Source of the DNA: Methylobacterium organophilum
Lineage (GTDB): Bacteria; Pseudomonadota; Alphaproteobacteria; Rhizobiales; Beijerinckiaceae
Length of the DNA: 64,000 nt
Assembly: GCF_022179465.1 (NCBI RefSeq)
Contig: NZ_BPQV01000002.1
Location: forward strand, 124,001-188,000
Direction: 5' to 3'
Shown: one piece after another, positions 2,911 through 18,211 of the stretch
Position numbering within the stretch: the first letter of the stretch is position 1
How the letters are laid out: each line of letters begins with the position of its first letter
Program-made: the position numbers and the translations under genes
Notes under the pieces: model-generated
The model's input: only the letters and a program-made list of their open reading frames with translations
Databases searched by the model: none
Told to the model about the DNA's origin: nothing

Positions 2911-3654
2911 TCAGCTTGTCGGGAAGCCGCCCTGGGCCTGGTCGAAGTCGAGATAGGCGGTCTCGATCACGATCTGCGTCCGGCTGATCACCTCGAGCTT
3001 GCGCAGGATCTCGGAGACATGGGCCTTCACGGTCGAGTCGCCGACCTGCAGCTCGTGGGCGATCTGCTTGTTGAGCTTGCCCTGGCGGATCATCATCAGC
3101 ACGCGCAGCTGCTGCGGCGTCAGCCGGGCGATGCGCTCGGCGAGCGGCGACTTGCGCCCGCGGCCCGGGGGCGGGGCGAGGGGCGCGCCGAGATCCGGCG
3201 GCATGAACAGGGCGCCGTTCAGCACCTCGGAGATCGCGCGGGTCAGGGTCGCCTTGTCGACGGCCTTGGGCACGAAGCCGGCCGCGCCGTGATGGATCGC
3301 TTCGTGCATGATGCGCGGATCCTCCAGGCCCGACACGATCAGGATCGGCACGCGGGGGAAGCGCGTCCGGATGGTGACGAGCCCGTCGAACCCGTTCACG
3401 CCCTGCATGGTGAGGTCGAGGAGCGTCAGGTCGATGCCCGGCGTCGCCGCCAGGATCTCGCAGGCGCTGCGGATGCCGTCGGCCTCGTGCAGGCGGGCGC
3501 CGGGGAAGGCGAGGTGGATCGCGCTCGACAGCGCGTCGCGAAACAGAGGGTGATCGTCGACCACGAGAAGCTCGACCGCGCCCTGTGCGGGCGCCGTGCC
3601 GGGGATCGTGCCGCCGGTCGGGGAGGGGTCGTTCGCCATGAGGGTGGCCGTCAT
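2911..3654 (-). CDS. LuxR/NarL-family response regulator, ExaE/AgmR-like
   Basis: This is a DNA-binding response regulator of about 247 residues. A receiver domain begins at ELLVVDDHPLFRDAL with phospho-acceptor Asp in LTLLDLTM and the conserved Lys in FVPKAVDKATL. A C-terminal LuxR-type helix-turn-helix follows (LTPQQLRVLMMI, NKQIAHELQVGDSTVKAHVS). It is transcribed in the same direction as exaF, about 150 bp downstream. Its position beside a PQQ dehydrogenase resembles the AgmR/ExaE regulators of quinoprotein ethanol oxidation, which is the basis for the proposed target. No kinase gene is adjacent; the nearest is at 15802-17172. Start ATG 3654 is preferred; 3639 is possible, and the open frame extends to 3801. 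Confidence 0.85.
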   Translation of the reverse strand: MTATLMANDPSPTGGTIPGTAPAQGAVELLVVDDHPLFRDALSSAIHLAFPGARLHEADGIRSACEILAATPGIDLTLLDLTMQGVNGFDGLVTIRTRFPRVPILIVSGLEDPRIMHEAIHHGAAGFVPKAVDKATLTRAISEVLNGALFMPPDLGAPLAPPPGRGRKSPLAERIARLTPQQLRVLMMIRQGKLNKQIAHELQVGDSTVKAHVSEILRKLEVISRTQIVIETAYLDFDQAQGGFPTS

Positions 3655-3805
3655 CGAAGTCGCGCCATCGTCGATGCGGGTCGCGCCGTCCCCGCGGGAG
3701 CCGGGAAAGCCGGCCCCCGGCGGGACCACGGGGTTCCGCCGGGCGCCATGGTGAAGGGGTTCGCGGGGCGGCGCAATCGCCGCCGCCCCGCCGCCGGTCA
3801 CCGCG

Positions 3806-5602
3806 TCAGCGGGCGGCCACCTTCTTCGGCAGCTTGAAGGCCCAGAAGCTGCCGCCCTGGTTGATGCCGGCGGTGGACTTGGCCACCTCGCCGCCCCAGA
3901 GCGGAACCGCGCCGCCCCAGCCGGCGGTGATGCCGATCCACTGCTCGCCGTCCTGCTCCCAGGTGATCGGGGAGCCGACGATGCCGGTGCCGACCTGGAA
4001 CTTCCAGACTTCCTCGCCGGTCTTGGCGTCGAAGGCCTTCAGGAAGCCCTCCGGCGTGCCGGTGAAGACGAGGCCGCCGGCGGTGGAGAGGACGCCGCCC
4101 CAGAGCGGAGCCTTGTTCTTGTAGTTCCACACCACCTTGCCGGTGGCCGGGTCGATGGCCTTGAGCGAGCCGATATGGTCCTCGAAGAGCGGCTTGATGG
4201 TGAAGCCGGCGCCGAGATAGGCGGCTCCCTTCTTGTAGTTCACCGGCTCGTTCCAGATATCCATGCCCCATTCGTTGGAGGGCACGTAGAACAGCTTGGT
4301 GTCGGGGTTGTAGCCGATCGGCATCCAGTTCTTGCCGCCGAGGAAGCTCGGCACCGCGAACACGGACTTGCCCTTCTTGCCGTCCTCGGACTTGGCCGGG
4401 TCGCCCGGGCGGAACTCGGGGTCGTAGATCGGGCGGCCATCCTCGCCGATGCCCTTGGCCCAGTTGATCTTCTCGACGAACGGCGTCGCCGAGATGAACT
4501 TCCCGTTGGTCCGGTCGAGCACGTAGAAGAAGCCGTTGCGGTCGGCGGTGCCGCCGGCCTTGATGGTCTTGCCGCCCTTGTTCAGCTCGAAGGGCACGAA
4601 CTCGTTCACGCCGTCGAAGTCCCAGCCGTCATGCGGCGTGGTCTGGAAGCCCCACACGATCTCGCCGTTGTCCGGGTTGAGCGCGATGCGGGAGGCCGAC
4701 CACTTGTTGTCGCCGGGGCGCAGGGCCGAGTTCCACGGACCGGGATTGCCGGTGCCGAAATAGAGGAGATCGGTCTCGGGATCGTAGGTGCCGCCGAGCC
4801 AGGTGGCGCCGCCGCCATACTTCCACATGTCGCCCGGCCAGCTCTCGTTGACCTTGCCGGTCATGGTCGAGGGCTTGCCGTTCAGTTCGCCCATATGGCC
4901 TTCGATCACGGGGCGCTTCCACACCACCTCGCCGGTCTCGGCGTCGCGCGCCTCGACCCGGCCGACGATGCCGAACTCGCCGCCCGACACGCCGGTGATG
5001 ATCTTGCCCTTCACGATCAGCGGAGCGGCGGTGTAGCTGTAGCCCGACTTGAAGTCGTCGATCTCCTTGCGCCACACGACCTTGCCGGTCTTGGCGTCGA
5101 GGGCCATCAGCTTGGCGTCGAGCGTGCCGAAATAGACCTTGTCCTTGTAGAGCGCGGCGCCGCGATTCACGACGTCGCAGCAGGGCAGGATGCCCTCGGG
5201 CAGGCGGGCATCGTATTCCCACAGCTTCTCGCCGGTGCGGGAATTGATCGCGTAGATGCGCGAATAGGAGCCGGTGACGTAGAGCACGCCGTCCTTGACC
5301 AGCGGCTGGCTCTCCTGGCCGCGCTGCTTCTCGCCGCCGAAGGAGAAGGAATAGGCCGGCACGAGGCCCTTCACCGTCTCCTTGTTGATGGCCTTGAGGC
5401 CGCTGTAGCGCTGACCCTGGGTGCCGAGGCCGTAGGTGACGACATCCTCAGGGGTCTTGGCGTCGTTGAGGATGTCCTGCTCGGACACGCCGGCCGACGC
5501 TGCGGCCTTCTCGGGCTCCCTGGCCTGGACGCTCAGCGCCGCCGAGGCGACCAGCAGCGAGGCCATCCCCGCGGCCGCCAGAAAACGGTCACGCACTCTC
5601 AT
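3806..5602 (-). CDS. exaF: Lanthanide-type PQQ alcohol (ethanol) dehydrogenase
   Basis: A periplasmic quinoprotein of 598 residues that oxidises primary alcohols and passes electrons to a c-type cytochrome. A Sec signal peptide covers residues 1-27. Beta-propeller repeats with DAKTGKVVW-type blades fill the protein. The vicinal disulfide pair Cys141-Cys142 (ILPCCDVV) contacts PQQ. Metal ligands Glu209 (GGEFG) and Asn286 (GTGNPGPWN) are present. The HDGWDFDGV segment holds catalytic Asp328 and the extra Asp330; that second Asp marks lanthanide-dependent enzymes, whereas calcium ethanol dehydrogenases have Ser there. GGGATW and GNPGPWN match the ExaF/PedH branch better than XoxF (GGGTNW, GNPAPWN). 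Methanol or formaldehyde use cannot be judged from sequence. Confidence 0.93.
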
Positions 5603-5650
5603 GACATTCCCTCCTCGTCACGGGCGGCCTCGGCGGCTGCGCCGCCGATA

Positions 5651-5662
5651 GGGGAATTCCCC
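5651..5662. other. Perfect 12-bp palindrome upstream of exaF
   Basis: GGGGAATTCCCC lies about 49 bases before the exaF start, inside the 320-base gap between exaF and the XoxJ-like gene. Its position between the shared 14-bp core element and the ribosome-binding site would suit an operator or a transcript hairpin. Function is not known. Confidence 0.35.
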
Positions 5663-5706
5663 CTTTTATGACTTGAGCCACGCCCTTGATTCCGAGACTA
5701 CCGGCT

Positions 5707-5727
5707 GGTTCCCCGCCGGGTTATTGG
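5707..5727 (-). promoter_or_regulatory. Candidate activator site upstream of exaF
   Basis: In the direction of exaF this reads CCAA, three variable bases (TAA), then CCCGGCGGGGAACC. The same element, with 18 of 21 bases identical, occurs at 7313-7333 in the other control region of the island. Here 104 bases separate it from the exaF ATG. It lies in the gap 5603-5922, which otherwise holds the exaF leader and no gene. No convincing -35/-10 pair could be picked out. The regulator is inferred to be the response regulator at 2911-3654 or another ErcS/ExaE-type partner. Confidence 0.5.
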
Positions 5728-5922
5728 CCATAAGTCGAAGATAAGAGTTTTTGCGCCCGAGACCTCTGCTGATCGGCGCCCCTGCGCGATCAAGGCCTGT
5801 AAAGGCCGAAGCGAATGCGCGGGATCTATTGTTGATTTGATCGACAAACGCCGCCGGCGCCCGCGTGCGCGGACGCCGCAACCATCTTGGACCGGGGCTC
5901 GTCCCGCCGGAAACCTTCGGGA

Positions 5923-6780
5923 TCAGAAACCCTGCGGGGCGGTGTAGGTCACCCCGTAGCGGTCGCAGATCGTCTTCACCGTGCCGTCCGCGATCAGGGC
6001 GGTCACCGTGTCGCCCACGGCGTAGCCGAGATCGCGGGAATTCGCGCGCACCGCGCCGCCGAGGTCCCATTTCGCGCGCATCATGCCGGGGATGGCGATC
6101 TCGACGACGGGGTTCTCGTCTCGCGGCGCCTTGGCGGCGAACAGGGCCGCCTCGATCGCCGCGCGGGAACCGGCCAGGATCGGTGCCTCGCCCGCGAGAT
6201 AGGCCTGGGCCGCGGCCTCCGTGCTGCGGAAATGCAGGAGATTCTCCCGCAGGTTTCCGCCGCCGGCCATCAGGAGCTGCGCGTCGGAGGCGCTGTTGCC
6301 CTCGAGCGCGACCTTTTTGCCCTCGAAATCCTTCAGGCTCTCGAGCCCCTCCAGCTTGTCCTTCTTCCAGGCGAAGGCGAGGTGCTGGTCGAAATAGGGG
6401 GTCGTCATGAAGACCTGCTCGTTGCGCAGAGCGAGCTGCTTGTCGTTGGGCACGTGCAGCATCAGGTCCGCGAGGGGCGAGCCGGCGAGGTCGCCCTTCC
6501 AGAGGTTCAGGCGGAAATCGCCGTCGACGTTCTCCCCGGCATCGACGATGCGCAGGTTCAGCTTCACCTTGAGGCGGTCCGCGATCGCCTGGGCGAGATC
6601 GACGTCGATGCCGACGGGCTTGCCGTCCTTCATCTCGGAGAAGGGGGCGTTGTCGCCGTAGAGCGCGACGATGATCTCGCCCGCGGCCACCACCTCGTCA
6701 TAGGGGCGGGCGGCGGCGGGGGCGGCGAGCCCGAGGACGAGCGCGCAGGCGAGGGCGAGGCGGCGGGCCTTGCGGGTCAT
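5923..6780 (-). CDS. XoxJ/MxaJ-like periplasmic binding protein (quinoprotein-associated)
   Basis: An exported solute-binding-type protein of 285 residues with a signal peptide ending near AAPAAARPYD. It has the type 2 periplasmic-binding fold, with VALYGDNAPFSEMKDGKPVGIDVDLA near the N-terminus and EGNSASDAQLL in the second lobe. Proteins of this family (TIGR03871-like, related to MxaJ and XoxJ) are encoded beside PQQ alcohol dehydrogenases; proposed roles are helping enzyme maturation or the cytochrome interaction rather than nutrient import. It follows the cytochrome gene after 16 bases and precedes exaF by 320 bases. No ABC permease accompanies it. Confidence 0.88.
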   Translation of the reverse strand: MTRKARRLALACALVLGLAAPAAARPYDEVVAAGEIIVALYGDNAPFSEMKDGKPVGIDVDLAQAIADRLKVKLNLRIVDAGENVDGDFRLNLWKGDLAGSPLADLMLHVPNDKQLALRNEQVFMTTPYFDQHLAFAWKKDKLEGLESLKDFEGKKVALEGNSASDAQLLMAGGGNLRENLLHFRSTEAAAQAYLAGEAPILAGSRAAIEAALFAAKAPRDENPVVEIAIPGMMRAKWDLGGAVRANSRDLGYAVGDTVTALIADGTVKTICDRYGVTYTAPQGF

Positions 6781-6796
6781 GGCGTCGTGCCCCGGC

Positions 6797-7219
6797 CTAT
6801 TCTTCGTGCTTGGCGTCGATGTAGGAGCGGATCGCCCAGAGGGCTTCCTGCGAGAGCACGCCCTCGAAGGCGGGCATCTTGGTGACGCCGTTGATGACCG
6901 CGCCGTGGCGCATGCGCTCGACGAAGTATTCGTCGCCTTCCTTGCCCTGGGGCAGGTAGCGCAGGTCCGGGGCGAGGCCGCCGGAGATCATCTGCAGGCC
7001 GTGGCAGCGGGCACAGTTCTGGTTGAACCCGGACGAGCCGATCGCGATCGCCTTCTCGTTGCCGCGATAGGGGTTCTCGCTCTTCCACTCCGTGCCGAGG
7101 GGCTCGAGGCCGGCCGTGTCCACCGGCTGAGGCTGGACGTCGCCATGGGCCCGGGCCGCCCCCTGCGCCAGGGCGAGGCCGAGCGCGAGGCTCCCGGCGA
7201 GAACGAGCGCCTTCTTCAT
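6797..7219 (-). CDS. pedF: Cytochrome c-550, PedF/XoxG-type electron acceptor
   Basis: A periplasmic mono-haem cytochrome c of 140 residues. The signal peptide ends near GAARAHG. The haem-binding CARCH motif is followed by the distal methionine region GVTKMPAFEG. The N-terminal HGDVQPQPVDT segment is characteristic of PedF, the cytochrome partner of PQQ ethanol dehydrogenases; XoxG plays the same part for lanthanide methanol dehydrogenase. A strong GGAGGAAA ribosome-binding site precedes the ATG. It is first in a minus-strand unit with the XoxJ-like gene, and divergent from the binding-protein operon at 7443. Confidence 0.9.
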   Translation of the reverse strand: MKKALVLAGSLALGLALAQGAARAHGDVQPQPVDTAGLEPLGTEWKSENPYRGNEKAIAIGSSGFNQNCARCHGLQMISGGLAPDLRYLPQGKEGDEYFVERMRHGAVINGVTKMPAFEGVLSQEALWAIRSYIDAKHEE

Positions 7220-7312
7220 CGAAACGTTTCCTCCGGTCCATGCCGCGGCTCGTGACCGGCCGCGTGCCGAGCGACGGGCTGTCGCGCCGGCCGCTGATCT
7301 TGAGGAACGCTA

Positions 7313-7333
7313 CCAACCCCCCGGCGGGGAACC
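7313..7333 (+). promoter_or_regulatory. Candidate activator site in the pedF/binding-protein divergent region
   Basis: The plus strand reads CCAA, three variable bases (CCC), then CCCGGCGGGGAACC, matching the exaF upstream element at 18 of 21 positions. It is 109 bases before the ATG at 7443 in the same relative orientation as the exaF copy, and 94 bases from the pedF ATG in the opposite orientation, so it could serve both divergent units. This is a by-eye match; no genome-wide scan was possible. Confidence 0.5.
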
Positions 7334-7442
7334 CATTGTGCTTTGGTACGACGCCGGGAAAGACGCTCTTCCGAAACCACCTGCGACCTTGGTCCAATAT
7401 CGGCCCGCCCGAGGCCCGGCCTAACCTGCCGCAAACAAGACC

Positions 7443-8711
7443 ATGGGCGGAAACGAGACCTGTCTCGGGATGTGGGCACAGGCTGATCGACGTGACGGCC
7501 GGTCGTCCCGTTTCCGGGGCGTGGCCGTCCTGCTGGGCCTCGCCGTGGCGATGCTGCCGATGGGGCTCGCGCCGCCGGCCGCGGCGGCGGCCGAGAGGAT
7601 CCCCCTCACGATCGGCTATTTCGAGCACCGCATCGAGCGCCCGACGCCCCTCAATAACGAGGATCCGGTTCCCGAGGACGAGGGCCTGCGCGGGGCCGAG
7701 CTCGGCCTGCAGGATTCCAACGCCACCGGCCGCTTCGTCGGCCTCGGCTTCTCCCTGAAGCAGGCGGTGGTCGAGCCGGAGGGCGACGTGAAGGCCGCCT
7801 TCGCGGCCTTCATGCAGGCGGAGAGGCCCCGCTTCGTCATCCTCAACGCCCCGGCCGAGGACGTGCTGGCGCTCTCCGGCATGGAGGAGGCGCGGGAGAC
7901 GGTGCTCCTCAATATCGGGGCGCCGGACACGCACCTGCGCGACGCCGATTGCCGGCCGCGCCTGCTCCATGTCCTGCCCTCCCGGGACATGCTGGCCGAC
8001 GCGCTGATGCAGCTCCTCGTGTTCAAGCGCTGGAACCGGATCCTGCTCGTCTCCGGCCCCAATCCCGGCGACCGGCTCTACGCGGAGGCCCTGCGCCGGA
8101 GCGCCAGGAAGTTCGGTGCCCGCATCGTGGCGGAGGCCGCCTTCGACGCCAGGGGCGCGGACCTGCGCGATTCTGCCCTGAAGGAATTCCCCGTGATCAC
8201 CCGGGGCCCCGAGCACGACGTGGTCGCGGTGGCCGACGAGCTCGGCGAGTTCGGGGCCAACCTCGTCTACAACACCGCCTCGCCCCGCCCCGTGGTCGGC
8301 ACGCAGGGCCTGACCCCCGCCGCCTGGGGCCGCCCCGTCGAGGCCTGGGCCGCGGTGCAGCTGCAGCAGCGCTTCCGCCGGCTCGCGGGCCGGGCGATGT
8401 CGCCGGTCGACTGGGCCGGCTGGATGGCGGCCCATGCCGTCGGCGAGGCGGCGGTGCAGCTTAAATCCGCCGATGCGGGCGCTGTGCGCGACCTGATGCT
8501 CTCGCCCACCTTCGAGGTCGGCGGCTTCAAGGGCCGCTCCCTGAGCTTCCGGCCCTGGAACGGCCAGCTGCGCCAGCCCCTGTTCGTGCTCTGGCCGGGG
8601 GCGGTGGTCGCCGCCGCCCCGGTCGAGGGCTTCCTGCACCGGCGGACCGATCTCGACACCCTCGGGCTCGACCAGCCCGAAAGCGCCTGCAAGGCCTTCG
8701 GAGGACCCTGA
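7443..8711 (+). CDS. PQQ-alcohol-dehydrogenase-associated ABC-type substrate-binding protein
   Basis: A 422-residue exported protein. A hydrophobic signal segment (AVLLGLAVAMLPMGLAPPAAAA) precedes a type 1 periplasmic-binding fold starting at IPLTIGYFEHRIERPTPLNN. This start, with tyrosine-phenylalanine and the RPTPLNN block, resembles the TIGR03863 family found beside PQQ alcohol dehydrogenases. The true start could be a little downstream of ATG 7443, because the first 25 residues are polar for a signal peptide. The beta-propeller gene starts 2 bases after its stop. The partner ATPase and permease genes usually found in such clusters are not in this island. Confidence 0.82.
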   Translation: MGGNETCLGMWAQADRRDGRSSRFRGVAVLLGLAVAMLPMGLAPPAAAAAERIPLTIGYFEHRIERPTPLNNEDPVPEDEGLRGAELGLQDSNATGRFVGLGFSLKQAVVEPEGDVKAAFAAFMQAERPRFVILNAPAEDVLALSGMEEARETVLLNIGAPDTHLRDADCRPRLLHVLPSRDMLADALMQLLVFKRWNRILLVSGPNPGDRLYAEALRRSARKFGARIVAEAAFDARGADLRDSALKEFPVITRGPEHDVVAVADELGEFGANLVYNTASPRPVVGTQGLTPAAWGRPVEAWAAVQLQQRFRRLAGRAMSPVDWAGWMAAHAVGEAAVQLKSADAGAVRDLMLSPTFEVGGFKGRSLSFRPWNGQLRQPLFVLWPGAVVAAAPVEGFLHRRTDLDTLGLDQPESACKAFGGP

Positions 8712-8713
8712 CG

Positions 8714-9721
8714 ATGCGCCGCGCCGCCCTGCTCCTCGTCCTGTCGCTCGCGGCCGCGCCGGCGCGCGCGCACGAGGTCTATGTCACCAACGAGCGGGAC
8801 AACACCGTTTCGGTGATCGATTCCGCCACCTGGGAGGTCACCCGGACCTTCCCCGTGGGCCGCCGGCCGCGGGGGCTCACCTTCTCGAAGGACGGCGCCC
8901 GGCTCTTCGTCTGCGCCAGCGATTCCGACGCGGTGCAGGTGATCGATCCGGAGAGCGGCAAGCTCCTGCACAACCTGCCCTCGGGCGAGGACCCGGAGCA
9001 GTTCGCCCTCTCGCCGGACGGCAAGACGCTGTTCATCGCCAACGAGAACAACGCCACCACCACGGTGGTCGATGCCGACAGCCGCAAGGTGCTGGCCCAG
9101 ATCGATGTCGGCATCGAGCCCGAGGGCATGGCGGTGAGCCCCGATGGCCGAATCGCGGTGACGACCTCCGAGACCACCAACATGGTCCACTGGATCGACA
9201 CCGGCACCCTCCAGGCCGTCGACGCGACGCCGGTCGGCCAGCGCCCGCGCCACGCGGAGTTCTCGAAGGACGGCAGCCGGCTCTGGGTCTCCTCCGAGAT
9301 CGGCGGCACCGTCTCCGTGGTCGATGTGGCCAGCCGCAAGGTCGTCGAGACGATCGGCTTCGCGGTGAAGGGCATCTCGGCCGACCGGATCCAGCCGGTC
9401 GGCATCAGCCTGACCGAGGACGGCCGCCTCGCCTTCGTGGCGCTCGGCCCCTCCGACCGCATCGCCGTGATCGACGCGAAGACCTACAAGGTGCTGAGCT
9501 ACGTGCTGGTCGGCCGCCGGGTCTGGCACACGGCGCTGACGCCGGAGCAGGACCGCCTCGTCACCACCAACGGTGTCTCCGGCGATGTCACCGTCATCGA
9601 CGTCGCGACCCTGAAGCCGATCAAGAGCGTCAAGGTCGGCCGCTTCCCCTGGGGCGCCGCCTTCCGCCCCCGGGGCGGGGAGGCGACGCCGCAGAACCGC
9701 TCGGCCGGGGTGGTGGAGTGA
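8714..9721 (+). CDS. Periplasmic YVTN-type beta-propeller protein, quinoprotein-associated
   Basis: A 335-residue exported protein with signal peptide MRRAALLLVLSLAAAPARA. About seven repeats of the pattern YVTNERDNTVSVID...FPVGRRPRG follow, giving a YVTN beta-propeller. Proteins of this type (TIGR03866-like) are linked to PQQ alcohol oxidation clusters, but their biochemical role is not established. The gene sits 2 bases after the binding-protein gene, and its stop overlaps the GTG start of the NosR-like gene by four bases (GTGA), so the three are translationally coupled. Confidence 0.87.
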   Translation: MRRAALLLVLSLAAAPARAHEVYVTNERDNTVSVIDSATWEVTRTFPVGRRPRGLTFSKDGARLFVCASDSDAVQVIDPESGKLLHNLPSGEDPEQFALSPDGKTLFIANENNATTTVVDADSRKVLAQIDVGIEPEGMAVSPDGRIAVTTSETTNMVHWIDTGTLQAVDATPVGQRPRHAEFSKDGSRLWVSSEIGGTVSVVDVASRKVVETIGFAVKGISADRIQPVGISLTEDGRLAFVALGPSDRIAVIDAKTYKVLSYVLVGRRVWHTALTPEQDRLVTTNGVSGDVTVIDVATLKPIKSVKVGRFPWGAAFRPRGGEATPQNRSAGVVE

Positions 9722-11811
9722 GCGCCGCCCTCCGAGCGCTCCTCCTCCTCCTCCTCTTCCTCGTCCTCCTCGCCCCCGCCGAGGCCGGCACCCTGGACCG
9801 GGCGGGGATGGAGAGGCTGTTCCCGGCGCCCCTCGTCGTCGGGGAGAAGGACGAGGTATTGTCGGTCTGGCCGATCCTGAAGCAGCAGGCGGGATCCTAC
9901 GAGGTCTTCGCCTACGCCTTCGAGTCGATCGACTTCGCGGCGATCCCGGGCTTCGGCGGCACGGCGCCGAACCTGCTCGTGGCGCTCGCGCCGGATGGCA
10001 GCTTCCGCGACGTGAAGGTGCTCTCGCATCACGAGCCGGTCTTCCTCGAAGGGCTCGGCGCCGAGCCGCTCTTCGCCTTCGTCGAGCAATATGTTGGGAT
10101 GTCCGCCCGGCGGCCGATCCGGGTCGGGCGGCCGAACGCCCGGGCGAACGGCGCCTCGCCCCTCGGCGTGGTCGACGGCGTCTCCATGGCCACCGCCTCG
10201 ACGCGGGTGATCAACGAGACCCTGCTCGCCTCGGCGCTGGCCGTGGCCCGGGCGAAGCTCGGCTTCGGCCAGGCGGCCCAGGTCGGGCTGAAGGTCGAGG
10301 CCAAGCCCGACCTCTACGAGCCCCTCGACGGGCCGGCCCTGCTCCGCCGGGGCTGGCTGAAGCGCTTCCGGCTCGGCAACGGGGAGGTGGACCGGGCCTT
10401 CGCCGGCACGGCTGTCGAGGGCGTCTCGGAGGGTGCGCCGGAGGAGACCTTCGCCGATCTCTTCCTCGCCTATCTCAACGCGCCCTCGATCGGGCGCAAC
10501 CTCCTCGGGGAGGCCGCCTTCGCCCGGCTGATGCGGGAGCTCGGCCCTGGCGACCACGCGGTGATGGTGGTGAGCGCCGGCCCCTGGAATCTCCTCGGCG
10601 AGAGCTTCGTGCTCGGCTCGATCCCGGACGGGCTCTCGGTGGTGCAGAACGGCCTCGCGGTGAATGCCCGCGACATGGCGATCGAGCGCCGCGGCCTCGG
10701 GGAGGCGGGGCTGCCGGAGGGGCCCTGGACCATCCTCAAGATCGTGCAGCAGGCCGGCTTCGACCCCTCCGCCCCCTGGACGCTCACCATGAAGGTCACC
10801 CGCGCGCGCGGGCAGATCTTCCCCGAGCGCGTCACGAAGGAATTCTCCACCGATTACGTCCTGCCGCCGAACCTGTTCACCCGCGAGAAGCCGGAGGACG
10901 GGCCGTCCTGGACCGAATCCTGGCGCGCCCGTGCCCCGGAGATCGGGCTGATCCTGGCGAGTTTCGGCCTGCTGGTGCCGGTGCTGGCGCGCCAGCGCGG
11001 ACTGGTGGCCGACCGGCGGCGCTTCCCGGTCTTCCGCCTCGCCTTCCTGGCCTTCACCCTCGGCTTCGTCGGCTGGTACGCGCAGGCCCAACTCTCGATC
11101 GTCACCGTGGTTGGCGCCGTGCGCGCCGCCCTCGTCACCCACGATGTCGCCTTCCTGCTCTACGATCCGCCCTCGCTGGTGATCTGGGCCTTCGCCCTGG
11201 CCGCCCTGTTCGCCTGGGGGCGGGGCACCTTCTGCGGCTGGCTCTGCCCCTTCGGCGCCCTGCAGGAACTCGTCGCCGCCCTGGCGCGGCCCCTGCGCCT
11301 GCGCCCGATCGCGGTGCCCGAGCGGGCCGACCGGCTGCTGCGGCTCCTGAAATATGGCGTGCTCGCCGGCATCGTCCTGGCCGCCGCCGCGGGCTCGCCC
11401 CTGGCCGACAGCCTCAGCGAGGTCGAGCCGTTCAAGACCTCGATCACCCTCTATTTCCTGCGCAGCTGGCCCTTTGTCGTCTACGCGGTCGGGCTCGTCG
11501 TCCTCAACCTCTTCGTCTTCAAGGGGTTCTGCCGCTATCTCTGTCCGCTGGGCGCCACCTTCGCCCTGCTCGGCAAGGTGCGGCTCCTCGACTGGATCCC
11601 CCGCCGGGCCGAATGCGGCAGCCCCTGCCAGCTCTGCAAGGTGCGCTGCCGCTACGGCGCCATCGCGCGCTCCGGCCGCATCGATTACGACGAGTGCTTC
11701 CAGTGCATGGATTGCGTCACCATCGTCCGGGATCCCGGCCTCTGCGTGCCGCAGATCCTGGAGCGCAAGCACGCCCGCCCGAAGCCGCTCCAGCCCCTGG
11801 CCGCCGAATGA
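9718..11811 (+). CDS. NosR-like membrane flavo-polyferredoxin
   Basis: This 697-residue inner-membrane redox protein has a signal/anchor segment at residues 5-22. A periplasmic FMN-binding-type domain carries DGVSMAT, matching the D-x-x-(S/T)-x-A-T flavinylation motif with Thr159 as the probable FMN attachment site. About five transmembrane segments follow between residues 400 and 620, with CGWLCPFGA (near 505) and CRYLCPLGA (near 605) as in NosR and NapH. Two C-terminal 4Fe-4S motifs follow (CGSPCQLCKVRC near 634 and CFQCMDC near 661). NosR moves electrons across the membrane for nitrous oxide reductase, but no nos genes are present. The next gene, apbE, would attach the FMN. The electron partner is inferred, not shown. 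Confidence 0.85.
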   Translation: MSAALRALLLLLLFLVLLAPAEAGTLDRAGMERLFPAPLVVGEKDEVLSVWPILKQQAGSYEVFAYAFESIDFAAIPGFGGTAPNLLVALAPDGSFRDVKVLSHHEPVFLEGLGAEPLFAFVEQYVGMSARRPIRVGRPNARANGASPLGVVDGVSMATASTRVINETLLASALAVARAKLGFGQAAQVGLKVEAKPDLYEPLDGPALLRRGWLKRFRLGNGEVDRAFAGTAVEGVSEGAPEETFADLFLAYLNAPSIGRNLLGEAAFARLMRELGPGDHAVMVVSAGPWNLLGESFVLGSIPDGLSVVQNGLAVNARDMAIERRGLGEAGLPEGPWTILKIVQQAGFDPSAPWTLTMKVTRARGQIFPERVTKEFSTDYVLPPNLFTREKPEDGPSWTESWRARAPEIGLILASFGLLVPVLARQRGLVADRRRFPVFRLAFLAFTLGFVGWYAQAQLSIVTVVGAVRAALVTHDVAFLLYDPPSLVIWAFALAALFAWGRGTFCGWLCPFGALQELVAALARPLRLRPIAVPERADRLLRLLKYGVLAGIVLAAAAGSPLADSLSEVEPFKTSITLYFLRSWPFVVYAVGLVVLNLFVFKGFCRYLCPLGATFALLGKVRLLDWIPRRAECGSPCQLCKVRCRYGAIARSGRIDYDECFQCMDCVTIVRDPGLCVPQILERKHARPKPLQPLAAE

Positions 11812-12797
11812 CCCGCCCGATCCTCCCCTGGCGCCCGGGGCGGCGCCGGCTCCTCCTCGGCGGAGTCGGGGCCCTGGCGGGCCTCGCGGCCGGGCCGAGG
11901 GCCTTCGCGCGGCTCTCCCGCGACCACGGCCTGCAGGCGCGCAGCCGCGCCGGCCTCGCCTTCGGCACCACCGTCGCCCTGACCGTGGCGGGGCCCTATG
12001 CGGAGGCGCTGGAGGCGGGGCTGCACGACGCCTTCCGGGCGATCCGCGCCGTCGAGGCCGCGGTCAGCCTGTTCCGGCCCGACAGCGCCCTGTCGCGGCT
12101 GAACCGCGACGGCCGCCTCGATGCGCCCGATCCGCTCCTGCGCGCACAGCTCCGCGTCGCCCTCGAGCTGGCCCGGGCCAGCGCGGGCGCCTACGACCCC
12201 ACCGTCCAGCCGCTCTGGACGCTCTGGGCGCAGGCCTCCGCCCGCGGCGAGCGGCCGGACGGGGCCGCCCTGGCGCGAATCCTTCCCCTGGTCGACTGGC
12301 GCGGGATCGAGATCGGCGAGGAGCGCATCCGGCTGACCCGGCCCGGCATGGGGATCACCCTGAACAGCCTCGCCCAGGGCTTCGCCGCGGACCGAGTGAT
12401 GGCGGCCCTGGACGCGGCCGGGATCCGGGACGCCTTCGTCGATACCGGGGAGTTCGGCGCCACCGGCCGCCACGCCGACGGCACGCCCTGGCGCCTCGGG
12501 CTCGCCCGGGTGCGGGCGCCGGGGGAGATCGCGGCGGTGATCGATCCGTTCTCCGGCTTCGCCTCGACCTCGGGGGACGAGTCCACGACCTTCTCGGCGG
12601 ACCACAAGGACCATCACATCTTCGATCCGCGGACCGGCTTCTCGCCGACCGCCCTGTCCGCGGTCACGGTGACGGCGCCGAGCGGGCTCCTCGCGGACGG
12701 GCTGTCGACGGCCGCCTTCGTGCTCGGGCCGGAACGCGGCGCGGCGCTGGTGGCGCGCTACGCCGCCTGCACCGCCCGCTTCACCGCCAAGGTCTGA
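11808..12797 (+). CDS. apbE: FAD:protein FMN transferase (ApbE family), Tat-exported
   Basis: It transfers FMN from FAD to a threonine of a target flavoprotein in the periplasm. The 329-residue protein begins with a twin-arginine-type signal (GRRRLLLGGVGALAGLAAG). The family motifs SRLNRDGRL, TLNSLAQGFAADRV, DTGEFGATGRHADG and STSGDESTTF are present, as is HHIFDPRTGFSP. The ATG overlaps the stop of the NosR-like gene (ATGA), so the immediate target is probably Thr159 of that protein. Its last 40 bases overlap the convergent GGDEF-EAL gene. Confidence 0.92.
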   Translation: MTRPILPWRPGRRRLLLGGVGALAGLAAGPRAFARLSRDHGLQARSRAGLAFGTTVALTVAGPYAEALEAGLHDAFRAIRAVEAAVSLFRPDSALSRLNRDGRLDAPDPLLRAQLRVALELARASAGAYDPTVQPLWTLWAQASARGERPDGAALARILPLVDWRGIEIGEERIRLTRPGMGITLNSLAQGFAADRVMAALDAAGIRDAFVDTGEFGATGRHADGTPWRLGLARVRAPGEIAAVIDPFSGFASTSGDESTTFSADHKDHHIFDPRTGFSPTALSAVTVTAPSGLLADGLSTAAFVLGPERGAALVARYAACTARFTAKV

Positions 12798-14428
12798 GCG
12801 TTGATCCGCGCGACGAGCGCCGGGTCGGGCTTCCGCGGTCCCGGCGGCGGCAGCAGGGCGAGGGGCGGCTCCGTGCCGCCCCCGGGCAGGGCCGGTATCC
12901 CCTCGGCGGCGACGTAGCGGTCGGTGTCCGCCTTCGACATCGGCTTGCCGAAGAGGTAGCCCTGGCCGAAGTCGCAGCCCTGGTTCGACAGCCAGGCCAC
13001 GCTGGTGTCGTTCTCGATGCCCTCCGCGGTGGTGGCGAGCCCCAGGCTGTTGCCGAGCTTGATGATCGCGTCCACGAGCTTCGCCCGCTCGTCGCCCATG
13101 TCGATGGAGCTCACATAGGAACGGTCGATCTTCAGCTTGTCGAACTTCAGTTCGCGCAGGTGGTAGAGGCTCGAATAGCCGGTGCCGAAATCGTCGAGGG
13201 CGATGCGCACGCCCAGCGCCTGGAGCGAGGCCAGGGTCGCCCGCGTGGCGTCGAGATCGTTCATCAGCACCGTTTCGGTGATCTCGATCTCCAGGCGCTC
13301 GGCGGGAAAGCCGGATTCCGTCAGGATCGCGAGGATCTTCCGGGCGAGCAGGGGATCCTGGAACTGCACCGGCGAGATGTTGACCGCGAGCTGGAGGTGG
13401 GACGGCCAATGGGCCGCGTCGCGGCAGGCCTTGCGCAGGAGCTGGTAGCTCATCTCGGCGATGAGGCCGGTCTCCTCGGCGACCGGGATGAAGGCGGCGG
13501 GCTGCATCAGGCCCTGCTCGGGATGGCGCCACCGGGCCAGAACCTCGAACCCGATCAGCCCCTGGCCGGGCAGCGCCACCACGGGCTGGTAGAAGGGCTC
13601 GATCTCGCTGCGTTCGAGGGCCCGGCGCAGGTCGCATTCCAGCTTGGCCCGGGCCTTCAGTGCCGCATCCATGGCGTCCTCGATGACCCGGTAGGGGAGG
13701 CCCTCCCGCTTCGCCTGGATCATGGCCAGGTCCGCAGCGTGCATCACCGCCTCGGCGCCCCGCTCCCCGCTGGCGAGGGCGATCCCGACCGTGGCGCCGA
13801 CGGACAGCGCCTGCCCCTCCCAGACGATGGGCTCGGAGATCGCGGCGACGAGGCTCTGGGCCAGCCGGGCGAAGCTCTCCCGCCCCCCGTCCTCCTCCAC
13901 GAGCAGGGCGAACTCGTCCCCGCCGAGACGGGAGGCCATGCCGCCCGGCGGCAGAAGCCGGGACAGCCGGTCCGCCACGGCGCAGAGAACAGCATCGCCG
14001 GCGGCGTGGCCATGGAGGTCGTTGATCGGCTTGAAGCGGTCCAGATCGATCAGCAGCACGGCGGCATCCGCCGCCTCCGCCCGGCTCCGGCAGGCCTCGA
14101 CCGCCTCCACGAAATGGCGCCGGTTGGCGAGGCCGGTGAGCGGATCGTGGCGGGCGGCGGCCGTCGCCTCGCCCTCCGCCGCATCCCGCTCGCGCATGGT
14201 CCGGCGCAGCTGGAGCGACTTGCGCAGGCTCGCGGCGAAGCCGCCGAGCCCGAGGAAGAAGCCGAGCATCAGAAGATCCGACAGGCCGTAGGTCACGACG
14301 AGGCGGTCGAGGGCGCGGAACGCCTCCAACTGGATGCCGACGACCCAGCAGCACACGCCCATCATCATCAGGCAGAGCGCCTCGTAGAACTCGCTCTGGC
14401 CCCAGCCGATCCTGCGCCCCGGATCCAT
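12758..14428 (-). CDS. Membrane-anchored GGDEF-EAL c-di-GMP protein
   Basis: A 556-residue protein with two N-terminal transmembrane segments (EALCLMMMGVCCWVVGIQL and a second near residues 55-75). A GGDEF domain follows with an intact SRLGGDEFALL active site. An EAL domain begins at FEVLARW (EVL for EAL, a common functional variant) with NISPVQF, EITETVL, DDFGTGYSSL, KIDRSYV and EGIE, so both cyclase and phosphodiesterase residues are present. I prefer ATG 14428 because GGAGG lies 8 bases upstream; the longer frame to 14512 has no ribosome-binding site. It converges on apbE with a 40-base overlap. The signal it senses is unknown. Confidence 0.9.
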   Translation of the reverse strand: MDPGRRIGWGQSEFYEALCLMMMGVCCWVVGIQLEAFRALDRLVVTYGLSDLLMLGFFLGLGGFAASLRKSLQLRRTMRERDAAEGEATAAARHDPLTGLANRRHFVEAVEACRSRAEAADAAVLLIDLDRFKPINDLHGHAAGDAVLCAVADRLSRLLPPGGMASRLGGDEFALLVEEDGGRESFARLAQSLVAAISEPIVWEGQALSVGATVGIALASGERGAEAVMHAADLAMIQAKREGLPYRVIEDAMDAALKARAKLECDLRRALERSEIEPFYQPVVALPGQGLIGFEVLARWRHPEQGLMQPAAFIPVAEETGLIAEMSYQLLRKACRDAAHWPSHLQLAVNISPVQFQDPLLARKILAILTESGFPAERLEIEITETVLMNDLDATRATLASLQALGVRIALDDFGTGYSSLYHLRELKFDKLKIDRSYVSSIDMGDERAKLVDAIIKLGNSLGLATTAEGIENDTSVAWLSNQGCDFGQGYLFGKPMSKADTDRYVAAEGIPALPGGGTEPPLALLPPPGPRKPDPALVARINAQTLAVKRAVQAA

Positions 14429-14635
14429 CCTGTCCTCCGACGGTGCGCCACTTGGCCAGCGGTTGATTAACGAGCGGTTTAAGAATCCCGATCTGTGGAT
14501 TGTTGAAATCACGCTTCACACGCTGAGGTCGCGGTCCTTCCCGGGCATTGCACCGCGTCTGCCCACGGGACATAACTTCCGGTCAAAGATCGGGGGCCGC
14601 TTTGCCGGAACACCCCGCGCCATGGGAGGAAGACG

Positions 14636-15805
14636 GTGGTGCACGGCACCCAGATGCGTCGGCATCTGTGCGGCATACAGACGGCCTGGTCCGATGCGGG
14701 CGAGGCCGAGCCTGCCGTCGCGTCAATCGTGGCCGAGATCGATCCGGCCGTGGTGGGGCATCTGCTGGTGTTCTTCTCGCCGGTCTATTCCGCCGAGGAG
14801 GTGGCCGCGGCGCTGGCGCGGCACTTCCCGGGCGTCGGCGTCTCCGGCTGCAGCACCTCCGGGGGCATCAGCCCGGCGGGCGCCATCGATCGCGGGCTCG
14901 TCCTAATCGCCTTCCCGCGCAAGGGCTTCCGCATCGTCTCCGCGATCCTGCCGGCGATCGACCATCTGGACGTGGAGCGCACCGCCTCCTCCGTCCGCGC
15001 CCTGCGCCGCACCCTCGACCAGGGCCGCGCCGACGCGGCCCAGACCGGCCGCTTCGCGATCTCCCTCATCGACGCCCTGGCCAATGCCGAGGAGACCGTG
15101 GTCTCCGCCGTGGCCTGGGCCCTCGACGGGATCCCCCTGGTCGGCGGCTCGGCAGGGGACGATCTCGCCTTCTGCGGGACGGCGCTGCTCCATGACGGCG
15201 TGATCCACCGGAACGCGGCGATCATCGTGCTGGTCGAGACCGATTTCCCGGTCCGCATCTTCAAGAGCGACAATTTCGAGCCGACGGACAAGAAATTCGT
15301 CGTCACCGCCGCCTGCGAGGACCAGCGCCGGGTCCAGGAGCTCAACGCGGAGCCCGCCGCCCGGGAATACGCCATGGCGGTCGGCCTCGATCCCGAGCAC
15401 CTGACGCCGTTGAGCTTCGCCGCCTATCCCCTCGCGGTGAAGATCGGCGGCGAGTATTTCTGCCGTTCGATCAGCCGCTGCGAGCCGGATGGGTCGCTCA
15501 CCTTCTTCTGCGCCATCGGCGAAGGCGTGGTGCTGACCCTGGCCCAGCCGCGCGACATCGTGGAGGCGACCCGGGCGGAGCTCGCCGCCCTGGACCAGGC
15601 GCTCGGCGGCCTCGACCTCGTGATCGGCTTCGATTGCGTGTTGCGCCGGCTCGACGCCGAGAGCCGGCAGGTCCGCCACCGCATCGCCGACCTCTACCGC
15701 CGCTACGGCGTGGTGGGATTCGAGACCTATGGCGAGCAGTACCGCTCGATGCACCTGAACCAGACCTTCACGGGCATCGCCATCGGCCGGGCCGAGGGGC
15801 CATGA
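14636..15805 (+). CDS. FIST-domain sensory protein
   Basis: A cytoplasmic protein of 389 residues with FIST N and FIST C domains. The N-terminal domain contains VGHLLVFFSPVYS and the glycine-rich GVGVSGCSTSGGISPAGA; the C-terminal domain includes SFAAYPLAVKIGGEYFCRS and GVVGFETYGEQY. FIST domains are thought to bind small ligands and usually feed a signalling partner. The GTG start at 14636 has GGAGGA in front. Its stop overlaps the start of the hybrid kinase by four bases (ATGA), so the two proteins very likely work together. In Pseudomonas, FIST proteins are found beside ErcS-type kinases linked to ethanol oxidation. Confidence 0.87.
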   Translation: MVHGTQMRRHLCGIQTAWSDAGEAEPAVASIVAEIDPAVVGHLLVFFSPVYSAEEVAAALARHFPGVGVSGCSTSGGISPAGAIDRGLVLIAFPRKGFRIVSAILPAIDHLDVERTASSVRALRRTLDQGRADAAQTGRFAISLIDALANAEETVVSAVAWALDGIPLVGGSAGDDLAFCGTALLHDGVIHRNAAIIVLVETDFPVRIFKSDNFEPTDKKFVVTAACEDQRRVQELNAEPAAREYAMAVGLDPEHLTPLSFAAYPLAVKIGGEYFCRSISRCEPDGSLTFFCAIGEGVVLTLAQPRDIVEATRAELAALDQALGGLDLVIGFDCVLRRLDAESRQVRHRIADLYRRYGVVGFETYGEQYRSMHLNQTFTGIAIGRAEGP

Positions 15806-17172
15806 ACCGGCCGACCCTGTGGGGAGCCGCGATGGACGCCGAGACGCCGGACACCGTCGAGGGCCTGACGCGCCGGGTGGCCAAGCTGGAGCGCATCAAC
15901 GCCGCGCTCATGGCCCATGTCGAGCGCACCATGGACCAGCAGGGGGGCGCCTATTCCCTGTTCCAGACGGCGATCATGCTGGAGGGCCGCGTGCGGACGC
16001 GGACCGAGGAGCTGACCACCCTGATGCACCGCCTGGAGCGCTCCAACGAGGCGCTGGTGGCGGCCAAGGAGGAGGCGGAGACCGCCAACCGCTCCAAGAC
16101 CCGCTTCCTCGCCGCAGCGAGCCACGACCTGCTGCAGCCCCTCAACGCCGCCCGGCTCTCCCTCTCGGCCCTCACCGACCTCGCCACCGCCCCCGACGCG
16201 CAGACCATCGCCGGCCAGGTCGAGCGCGGTCTGCAGACGATCGAGGACCTGATCAAGACCCTGATCGACATCTCGAAGCTCGATGCCGGCATCGTGCGCC
16301 CGATGATCAAGGCGGTGCGGCTCGCCGACATGTTCGCGACTATCGACGCGAGCTTCCGGCCCTTCGCCGAGCGCAAGGAGCTGCGCCTCGTCAGCCGCTG
16401 CCCGGACCTCGTCGTGCAGACCGACGTGGTCCTGCTCCAGCGCATCCTGCAGAACCTCGTCTCCAACGCGATCCGCTACACGGAGAGCGGCGGCGTGCTG
16501 CTCTGCGGCCGGTTGCGGGGCAAGACCTGCCGCGTCGACGTGATCGATACCGGGCGCGGCATCGCGGAGACCGAGCGCAGCCTCGTCTTCGAGGAATTCT
16601 ACCGGGGCGCCAAGGACACCGACGACGGCGAGGTCGGCCTCGGGCTCGGCCTCTCGATCGTGCAGCGCATGGCCTCGACCCTGGGGCACCCGATCACGCT
16701 CGCCTCCCGCGTCGGGCACGGCACGCGCATGACGCTGGAGCTGCCCATCGCCACGACCCGGCCGGACGCGCAGGTCCGCATCGCCCCCGTCGCCACCACG
16801 CTGACCGGCGCCCGCGTCCTGATCGTCGAGAACGACGCCACCGCCGCCGACGCCCTCCAGCGCCTGCTGCGGGGCTGGGACGCCAAGGTGCAGACCTTCC
16901 GCGACCTCGAAGCCGTCGTCGCCGGCCTCGAAGCCGGGATGATGCGTCCCGACGTGATGTTGATCGATTATCATCTCGACCACGGAGCCTGCGGCCTCGA
17001 CGTCGTCACTCACCTCCGCCAAACCCAAAACTGGGCCACGCCGGTGATCGTCACCACCGCCGATTACGCGCCCGAGATCCAGGCTCGGGTGATCGAGGTC
17101 GGTGCCGAGCTCGTGCACAAGCCGATCAAGCCGGCGCAGTTGCGCTCGCTGCTCGCCTATATGCTGGCCTGA
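15802..17172 (+). CDS. NahK/ErcS-type hybrid sensor histidine kinase
   Basis: A soluble hybrid kinase of 456 residues with no transmembrane segment. An N-terminal coiled coil (about residues 20-110) leads to the H-box AASHDLLQPLNAA, whose His is the autophosphorylation site. The N-box LVSNAIRYT, the G1 box DTGRGI and the G2 box GLGLGLSIV are intact. A C-terminal receiver has phospho-Asp in MLIDYHLD and Lys in HKPIKPAQ. HDLLQPLNAARL is typical of the NahK/ErcS group. The start ATG 15802 overlaps the FIST stop. The response regulator at 2911-3654, at the other end of the island, is the plausible final acceptor, although this pairing is an inference. Confidence 0.9.
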   Translation: MNRPTLWGAAMDAETPDTVEGLTRRVAKLERINAALMAHVERTMDQQGGAYSLFQTAIMLEGRVRTRTEELTTLMHRLERSNEALVAAKEEAETANRSKTRFLAAASHDLLQPLNAARLSLSALTDLATAPDAQTIAGQVERGLQTIEDLIKTLIDISKLDAGIVRPMIKAVRLADMFATIDASFRPFAERKELRLVSRCPDLVVQTDVVLLQRILQNLVSNAIRYTESGGVLLCGRLRGKTCRVDVIDTGRGIAETERSLVFEEFYRGAKDTDDGEVGLGLGLSIVQRMASTLGHPITLASRVGHGTRMTLELPIATTRPDAQVRIAPVATTLTGARVLIVENDATAADALQRLLRGWDAKVQTFRDLEAVVAGLEAGMMRPDVMLIDYHLDHGACGLDVVTHLRQTQNWATPVIVTTADYAPEIQARVIEVGAELVHKPIKPAQLRSLLAYMLA

Positions 17173-17272: not shown

Positions 17273-18211
17273 ATGCCCGCGCACCACGACATCCCCGCGA
17301 CCCCCGACGTCCTGGTCTTCGGTGTGTTCGAGCCTGGCCGTGCCCCGGTCCTGGAGATCGCCTCCGGCGATGAGGTGACGCTGCATTCGTTGCCCGCCGG
17401 AGGCCGGAGCTGCCTGCACCCGGATCCGGCCCGCGTCCCCGCCGAGCTGCGTGCCGCCCTCGACGCCCACGACGCCGCGCCCGGCCCGCATTTCGTCACC
17501 GGCCCGATCCATGTGCGCGGGGCCGAACCCGGCGACGTGCTGCAGATCGACATCCTCGACGTTCGATGCCGGCTGGATTGGGGCTCCGTCTCCATCCTGC
17601 CGCTGCTCGGGACGCTGCCCGACGAGTTCACCGAGTACGAGACGATCCATGCCGAGATCGATGCCGCCCGCGGCGTCGCCGTCCTGCCCTGGGGCCGGGC
17701 GCTGCCGCTCGCGCCCTTCTTCGGGATCCTGGCGACGCAGCCGCCCCGCATCTGGGGGCCGGTGACGACGCCCGTGCCCCGCGCTTTCGGTGGCAACATG
17801 GACAACAAGGAGTTGCGGGCCGGGGCGACGCTCTACCTGCCGGTCTTCGAGCCGGGCGCAGGCTTCTATGCCGGCGACGGCCATGCCCTCCAGGGCGACG
17901 GCGAGGTCTGCATCACCGCCCTCGAAACCGCGCTGACGGGCACCTTCCGGCTCACCGTGCGCAAGGACCTCGGCTATGCGTGGCCCTTCGCCGAGACGCC
18001 GACGGACCTCATGACCATCGGCCTGCACGAGAGTCTCGACGAGGCGATGCGGCAGGCCGTGCGCGAGATGGTCCGGCACGTCTGCGGCCGCACCGGCCTC
18101 ACCCGCAACCAAGCCTACATGCTCGCCTCGCTCGCGGGAAACCTGCGCATCACGCAGACGGTGGACGGCAACAAGGGCGTGCACATGCTGATGCCGAAAA
18201 CGGCGCTCTGA
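17273..18211 (+). CDS. Acetamidase/formamidase family protein
   Basis: A 312-residue cytoplasmic hydrolase of the FmdA/AmdA family, which converts formamide or short amides to the acid and ammonia. Recognisable blocks are HFVTGPIHVRGAEPGD, PPRIWGPV, GGNMDNKEL, YLPVFEPGAGFYAGDGHALQGDGE and a C-terminal SLAGNLRITQTVDGNKGVH. The E/D/H-rich GDGHALQGDGE segment is the family's metal-site region. It lies 100 bases after the kinase and may or may not belong to that unit. Substrate is not predictable; formamide use would fit a C1-using organism. Confidence 0.88.
   Translation: MPAHHDIPATPDVLVFGVFEPGRAPVLEIASGDEVTLHSLPAGGRSCLHPDPARVPAELRAALDAHDAAPGPHFVTGPIHVRGAEPGDVLQIDILDVRCRLDWGSVSILPLLGTLPDEFTEYETIHAEIDAARGVAVLPWGRALPLAPFFGILATQPPRIWGPVTTPVPRAFGGNMDNKELRAGATLYLPVFEPGAGFYAGDGHALQGDGEVCITALETALTGTFRLTVRKDLGYAWPFAETPTDLMTIGLHESLDEAMRQAVREMVRHVCGRTGLTRNQAYMLASLAGNLRITQTVDGNKGVHMLMPKTAL

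Follow-up and report, generated by a model that had tools for sequence, protein, structure and literature searches.

Methylamine dehydrogenase and nitrate reductase clusters encode a ferredoxin-type membrane protein (MauN and NapH, respectively) beside a periplasmic quinoprotein or reductase. MauN and NapH are not known to contain a flavin mononucleotide (FMN) domain. The 64-kb stretch of Methylobacterium organophilum DNA analyzed here (the window), from a genome (G000) of 5.06 Mb in 113 contigs, matches the MauN/NapH model below its cut-off. It carries, at positions 2911..17172, an island for alcohol oxidation of predicted lanthanide type, in which the dehydrogenase gene exaF is accompanied by genes for a NosR-like membrane protein (hereafter NosR') and an ApbE-type FMN transferase.

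Flavinylated NapH-like clusters with the ethanol oxidase ExaA were described in 172 genomes, and the oxidase was proposed to feed electrons into the respiratory chain through them, the role that cytochrome c plays elsewhere (Méheust 2021, PMC8238504). As in those clusters, where a membrane FMN/iron-sulfur protein (PF12801, KEGG K19339) goes with ApbE or FMN-binding genes, a PF12801 protein and ApbE are encoded beside an ethanol dehydrogenase in the window; unlike those clusters, whose flavoprotein is presented as acting in place of cytochrome c, the island also has the cytochrome PedF. The lanthanide type, PedA1A2, the altered flavinylation motif and the nesting within the ExaF distribution reported below are not mentioned in the available parts of PMC8238504.

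The island also resembles the ped cluster of Pseudomonas putida, with its PedH-type dehydrogenase, PedF, PedG, PedA1, PedA2, NosP-like gene, PedS1 kinase and ErdR/AgmR-type regulators, but in P. putida PedB and PedC adjoin PedA1A2 (PMC12997753). At the exaF locus of Methylorubrum extorquens AM1, exaF is likewise flanked by PedG- and PedF-like genes; in the parts of PMC12997753 available these are the only neighbors named, and the window's island adds PedA1A2-NosR'-ApbE. The words NosR and ApbE are absent from PMC12997753. With NosR-NosX(ApbE) the pair shares domain order, an FMN-type domain, CxxxCP motifs, a Cys-rich C-terminus and the ApbE partner. It differs in forming a separate clade, in lacking NosZ, in having [STA][KMR]AT instead of SGAT, and in an identity of about 31–38% over long matches.

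A literature search, in which papers naming both were covered in part, did not find a NosR-like protein joined to a lanthanide-type dehydrogenase. It found exaA with ApbE only in PMC8238504, and the word NosR is absent from the main texts of PMC6839425, PMC11996626, PMC10875860 and PMC8561711. New here are the lanthanide-type link, the altered motif, the nested distribution and the coexistence with PedF; flavinylated NapH-like/ExaA clusters and a NosP-kinase pair beside ped genes were already known.

NosR' and its genomic context

The exaF gene (3806..5602, minus strand) encodes a pyrroloquinoline quinone (PQQ) alcohol dehydrogenase of the PedH/ExaF type with a vicinal CC (798.9 bits against TIGR03075, the PQQ methanol/ethanol dehydrogenase family, cut-off 480.05). 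The residues D328 and D330 claimed by the first-pass annotation of this DNA are present at exactly these numbers, the second Asp lying two residues past the catalytic Asp, and by this D-x-D signature the enzyme is predicted to be of the lanthanide type. The best solved chains, 6zcv (876.8 bits) and 6zcw, are both quinoprotein ethanol dehydrogenase entries, which we take to be PedH of P. putida.

The NosR-like gene (9718..11811, plus strand) encodes a membrane flavo-iron-sulfur protein whose best named match is the NosR model NF046105 (523.8 bits, under the cut-off of 1000); it also matches PF12801 (55.2 bits, cut-off 22). NosR' consists of an FMN-type domain (residues 25–183), a beta-sandwich domain (about 198–390), transmembrane helices, two CxxxCP motifs and a Cys-rich C-terminus. 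Twelve cysteines (506, 510, 605, 609, 633, 637, 640, 644, 660, 663, 666 and 676) are invariant in an alignment of 47 rows. As in NosR, an FMN-type domain and an iron-sulfur membrane part are present, the former with a predicted periplasmic location. The predicted architecture is that of a relay linking periplasm and membrane. The downstream gene (11808..12797, plus strand) encodes the ApbE-type FMN transferase (PF02424, 204.9 bits, cut-off 25.6).

The FMN-type domain carries DGVSMAT, with Thr159 as the predicted flavinylation target. This Thr is kept in 97 of 98 rows of the NosR' branch, and the branch departs from the ApbE motif D-x-x-[S/T]-G-A-[S/T] at position 5, which is K in 77 rows, M in 15, R in 5 and S in 1. 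The branch forms one clade (branch support 100) apart from canonical NosR, with signature residues of its own, in trees built with the motif columns included. The frame-shifted L053, the truncated L048 and five short loci repeating longer ones were left out of the trees. In the tree, the closest NosR-like relatives are those of Methylobacterium dankookense and M. symbioticum.

The neighbors of 98 NosR'-branch loci, chosen by similarity to the window protein, were counted within the fetched flanks, with identity thresholds of our choice. L048 and L053 were assigned to the clade by default (the motif of L053 was read), and two genomes are counted twice (L041/L150 and L043/L181). A gene for a PQQ alcohol dehydrogenase (PQQ-ADH), PedA1, PedC, PedF or PqqC/PqqE was found near 69 of the 98 loci, and nosZ near none. 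At canonical NosR loci with flanks (n = 22) the picture was reversed, with quinoprotein-type genes near 0 and nosZ near 16. A PQQ-ADH of at least 50% identity was present in 53/98 loci and PedF in 39/98. The neighboring dehydrogenases (open reading frames of at least 300 residues, at least 50% identity) were of the D-x-D lanthanide type in 48 of 49 cases and of the D-x-S type in one, although the calcium-type enzyme of L235 (53% identity, D-x-S) would have passed this filter. The recurrence of NosR-like and apbE genes beside exaF-type genes, which the first-pass annotation had proposed as a check, spans numerous alpha-, beta- and gammaproteobacterial genera. It extends beyond close relatives, against the first half of that annotation's refuting condition: partner genes accompany NosR' in Methylobacterium, Methylopila, Paracraurococcus, Massilia, Janthinobacterium, Herbaspirillum, Zoogloea, Marinobacter and others. 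Among cultivable species, M. dankookense and M. goesingense carry the cassette. From the separate clade, the quinoprotein neighbors and the lack of nosZ neighbors, we infer that the NosR-like/ApbE pair is tied to the alcohol enzyme and is not a remnant of denitrification.

Several arrangements may be recorded for individual loci. NosR' lies between PedC and ExaF in L155 and L161. In L157 (Janthinobacterium) the order is ExaC, a DUF779 gene (6342-6710, between exaC and exaF), ExaF, one further gene and NosR'. A PccH-type cytochrome (PF22297, 212.7 bits) is encoded between pedF and the NosR-like gene in L165 (9415-9861). The sole D-x-S (calcium type) dehydrogenase among the 49 is that of L205 (6770 onward), from an Exilibacterium metagenome-assembled genome. 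At L042, L046, L180, L194, L210 and others, the fetched flanks of the NosR'-branch gene hold no quinoprotein gene, mostly in genomes with pqqC: this gene was found in 19 of the 22 named genomes with a NosR-like locus devoid of quinoprotein neighbors, and the Neptuniibacter pectenicola genome (L180) gave no pqqC match.

By identity, the NosR' branch is present in 18 of 397 genomes of the host's order; the motif was read in 17 of the 18, since the G215 copy is missing the half that would contain it. An ExaF orthologue (at least 65% identity) is found in 17 of these 18 genomes, and in ten of the 17 ExaF and NosR' lie either on separate contigs or over 1 Mb from each other (some contigs are short). 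Among 297 genomes, NosR' is present in 11 of 22 with ExaF and in 1 of 275 without (Fisher p 2.5e-13, relatedness uncorrected). The distribution of NosR' is thus nested in that of ExaF, and NosR' is almost confined to genomes with ExaF. The sole exception, G215 (L048), has transposase genes (HTH_Tnp_1 and integrase core, 3011-4200 of L048) beside pedG, in the position that exaF occupies in related islands, and a NosR-like gene without its N-terminal half, as if both exaF and the NosR-like gene had decayed. A pqqC match was detected in 15 of the 18 NosR'-bearing genomes vs. 126 of the 379 others (all 141 genomes with a match used, 139 above cut-off).

No nosZ match over the cut-off was obtained in 15 of the 18 NosR'-bearing genomes, and the host genome gave none (best match 25.4 bits). 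In G289, G044 and G361 nosZ is present, sited apart from the NosR' gene. In G337, a contig other than that of NosR' gives a NosZ-type match of 384.7 bits, under the cut-off; a branch genome with no over-cut-off match is therefore not in every case strictly free of nosZ.

Seven congeners without NosR' were sampled, and two of them, G174 and G272, have ExaF orthologues of 88–89% identity. Their islands match that of the window (regulator, exaF, pedG, pedF, pedA1, pedA2, GGDEF-EAL, NosP and kinase genes), and NosR-ApbE is absent from both, with no remnant detected by tblastn. In this genus NosR'-ApbE is therefore an accessory cassette, present or absent as a pair, and PedA1A2 is independent of NosR'. 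In the G174 island, pedF and pedA1 are separated by two additional genes; in L310 (7185-8788), genes encoding a small cytochrome c and a protein resembling glucose/sorbosone dehydrogenase are inserted at this place.

Layout and shared upstream element of the island

Every gene named by the first-pass annotation was found as a long open frame in 2911..17172. The third-codon GC content was 0.89–0.96 in nine frames, those other than apbE and the GGDEF-EAL gene. Other genomes show the same order of genes and the same divergent arrangement, so the island is not a chance reading.

On the minus strand, upstream of exaF, lie genes for a PedG/XoxJ-like periplasmic binding protein (5923..6780; PF00497), which occupies the same place in relatives, and for the cytochrome c550 PedF (6797..7219; TIGR04494, 199.5 bits, cut-off 122). 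The XoxJ-like protein claimed earlier is thus present, in what is more precisely the PedG position. Diverging from pedF on the plus strand are pedA1, pedA2, the NosR-like gene and apbE. The claimed pair of binding protein and beta-propeller was found and refined to homologues of PedA1 and PedA2: a PedA1-type substrate-binding protein of a PQQ-ADH-associated ABC system (7443..8711, start at 7521 by the gene caller; TIGR03863, 464.6 bits, cut-off 413.6) and a PedA2-type beta-propeller protein (8714..9721; TIGR03866, 515.5 bits, cut-off 287.3). A relationship of PedA2 to lactonase-type NosZ was considered and rejected, the score (99.6 bits vs. a cut-off of 700) being taken as ordinary propeller likeness. 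The gap between pedA1 and pedA2 is two bases, and pedA2 overlaps the NosR-like gene (9718-9721), as the latter overlaps apbE (11808-11811), by 4 bases each.

The pattern ATTGKNCNWWRGTM has exactly three matches in the 64-kb window, all intergenic. A 14-base element upstream of exaF (5723..5736, plus strand) recurs at the corresponding position in 8 of 10 Methylobacterium-type loci, which include the two without NosR-ApbE. Two further matches lie in the divergent promoter region of pedF and pedA1: element 1 (7335..7348, plus strand) recurs in 10/10 of these loci, and the exact pattern of element 2 (7385..7398, minus strand) recurs among them only in L310. A 17-base stretch around element 1 is identical in the window and the ten loci. 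The loci of genus g41 (L040, L041, L048 and L053) have one site each, corresponding to element 1 (4/4), and the pattern is absent from L154, L052 and L128. Because the pattern was built from sites that it then matched, the figure of 0.01 matches expected by chance per 64 kb is descriptive only and the matches are support rather than a test. Together with the overlapping start and stop codons, the shared element supports co-regulation at the sequence level and suggests that exaF, pedF-pedG and pedA1-pedA2-NosR-apbE form one regulon with the signalling genes outside it; within the window, the pattern is absent upstream of the latter.

The genes that flank this core encode signalling proteins. 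Convergent with apbE is a GGDEF-EAL gene (12758..14428, minus strand; GGDEF 128.0 bits, cut-off 23.8; EAL 247.7 bits, cut-off 31.3). It is followed on the plus strand by the adjacent, overlapping genes for a FIST-domain protein of the NosP type (14636..15805; PF08495, 134.9 bits, cut-off 23.2) and a hybrid histidine kinase of the NahK/ErcS type (15802..17172; HisKA-HATPase-REC). NosP is the best named model for the FIST protein (401.8 bits, cut-off 450), and the kinase scores 387.4 bits against the NahK/ErcS model NF041832 (cut-off 400). Family matches agreed with the earlier assignments of the PedF-type cytochrome, the NosR-like protein, ApbE, the GGDEF-EAL and FIST proteins and the hybrid kinase. 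The response regulator described as an orphan is encoded next to exaF (2911..3729, minus strand, start by the gene caller; the longest open reading frame reaches 3801). It is of the LuxR/NarL type (PF00072 and PF00196), and its nearest named relative is ErdR (172.5 bits, under the cut-off of 390). An acetamidase/formamidase-family gene (17273-18211) directly follows the kinase gene.

Role of NosR' and competing explanations

The computed results are the gene content, the separate clade, the changed motif, the nested distribution, the behavior as a cassette and the shared element; flavinylation, the direction of electron flow and quinone as the partner are inferred. The core would be an ExaF/PedH locus of three co-controlled units (exaF; pedF-pedG; pedA1-pedA2-nosR'-apbE). 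ApbE would attach FMN to Thr159 of the periplasmic domain of NosR', which would presumably be flavinylated despite its changed motif, and electrons would travel between this FMN and the quinone pool via the membrane and iron-sulfur parts. The most likely direction would be from ExaF-PQQH2, directly or via a partner, to NosR' and on to quinone. With PedF also present, NosR' is taken as a second, parallel exit, at about even odds, by which some electrons would join the chain ahead of the bc1 step. The NosP-kinase pair and the regulator would provide linked signalling of the alcohol/nitric oxide type known from ped/exa loci. That NosR' is dedicated to the ExaF-type system is highly probable; given this dedication, an outward relay is slightly favored. 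The explanation as a whole, a lanthanide-type alcohol oxidation locus in which NosR' is a dedicated membrane electron relay, is about evenly balanced.

Several points weigh against the outward relay. PedF, the usual acceptor, is also encoded in the flanks of 27 of the 47 named loci with an alcohol dehydrogenase, so that an extra electron exit is unnecessary for turnover, and the related NosR is thought to move electrons in the opposite direction, from membrane to reductase (PMC12052999, PMC7660919). A Gly-to-Ala change in the flavinylation motif of another protein cut flavinylation to about half (PMC12052999); together with the departure of NosR' from the ApbE consensus, this makes covalent FMN on NosR' uncertain. 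Only 50 of 80 named loci have an ApbE gene in their flanks, 29 of the 98 NosR'-branch loci have no quinoprotein gene nearby (some contigs are short), 11 of the 22 ExaF-bearing genomes lack NosR', and loci chosen by similarity to the window protein are not an unbiased sample.

The same relay could run inward, NosR' supplying electrons to the periplasm for the assembly or protection of lanthanide PQQ enzymes, as by acting on the vicinal disulfide, the PQQ redox state or, with PedG and PedA1A2, metal loading. This main rival is possible but rather unlikely. The direction would be that proposed for NosR and PceC (PMC12052999, PMC8238504), and PedF is often present as well. In L050, NosR'-ApbE comes directly after pqqBCDE; L051 has NosR' next to pqqBCDE, with the nearest ApbE gene about 2.4 kb away; neither stretch has an ExaF-like match. 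NosR' follows PedC in L155, L161, L168 and L186. However, pqq genes sit with alcohol dehydrogenases for other reasons too, and half of the ExaF-bearing genomes, as well as the two congeners that keep the island, lack NosR', which argues that it is not generally required for a working enzyme. A more specific version is doubtful: an optional transmembrane flavin relay, a distinct NosR branch with a changed signal and its own FMN transferase, would spend quinol electrons inward on building, reactivating or protecting the PQQ-lanthanide holoenzyme. If the inward relay were true, electron supply would be a so far unrecognized requirement of lanthanide-enzyme biogenesis in these bacteria. It is improbable that NosR' is instead a reductase linked to uptake, acquiring a lanthanide or chelate with PedA1A2 in place of the ATPase and permease (PedB/PedC) missing from the island. 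The NosR' gene does directly follow pedA1-pedA2, overlapping pedA2, and PedB/PedC are encoded elsewhere in the host genome, on contig C5 with their own PedA1A2. We sampled 74 PedA1 loci from the order (every second of at least 150 places, less one overlap): PedC was found in 53, NosR' in 2, one of which (L052) has both, and neither in 20, of which at least four (L271, L286, L298 and L307) are cut by contig ends. NosR' was accordingly rejected as a stand-in for PedB/PedC, PedA1A2 without either being common. Moreover, PedBC and NosR' occur together in L052, L128, L155, L165, L189 and L219, and several genomes have NosR' and PedA1 on different contigs.

It is extremely improbable that the NosR-like gene is left over from, or serves, nitrous oxide (N2O) respiration and stands here by chance. 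NosR is its best named model, but the score is below the NosR cut-off, the branch is a separate clade with its own signature residues and without nosZ neighbors, and the lack of an over-cut-off nosZ in the host genome is a strong counterpoint. The island could also be read whole, with the GGDEF-EAL, FIST and kinase genes integral to the same enzyme system. In Pseudomonas, a NosP-kinase pair is already known to accompany ped/exa genes (PMC12997753). Such a pair is also found near exaF in L053, L150, L154 and L216, and the congener islands L310 and L311, without NosR-ApbE, retain the regulator, exaF, pedG, pedF, pedA1, pedA2, GGDEF-EAL, NosP and kinase genes as a group, their GGDEF-EAL proteins being 64–68% identical to that of the window. 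Most NosR' loci, however, lack the signalling genes (NosP in 11/98, a GGDEF-EAL gene of at least 50% identity in 0/98), and the shared element is confined to the region upstream of exaF and the pedF/pedA1 interval, so that the whole-island reading appears unlikely. The first-pass view of the island as one functional system thus holds in part: recurrence of NosR-like and apbE genes with exaF and the ExaF-nested distribution speak for it, and the signalling genes speak against including every gene.

Studies of lanthanide enzymes have so far centered on metal uptake and on electron transfer to cytochrome c. The branch points to a likely annotation error, since its genes match "NosR" best and yet occur mostly in bacteria without nosZ, tied to alcohol oxidation. 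With a conserved flavin/iron-sulfur relay tied to ExaF/PedH, current models would gain a second route for electrons or a step in maturation.

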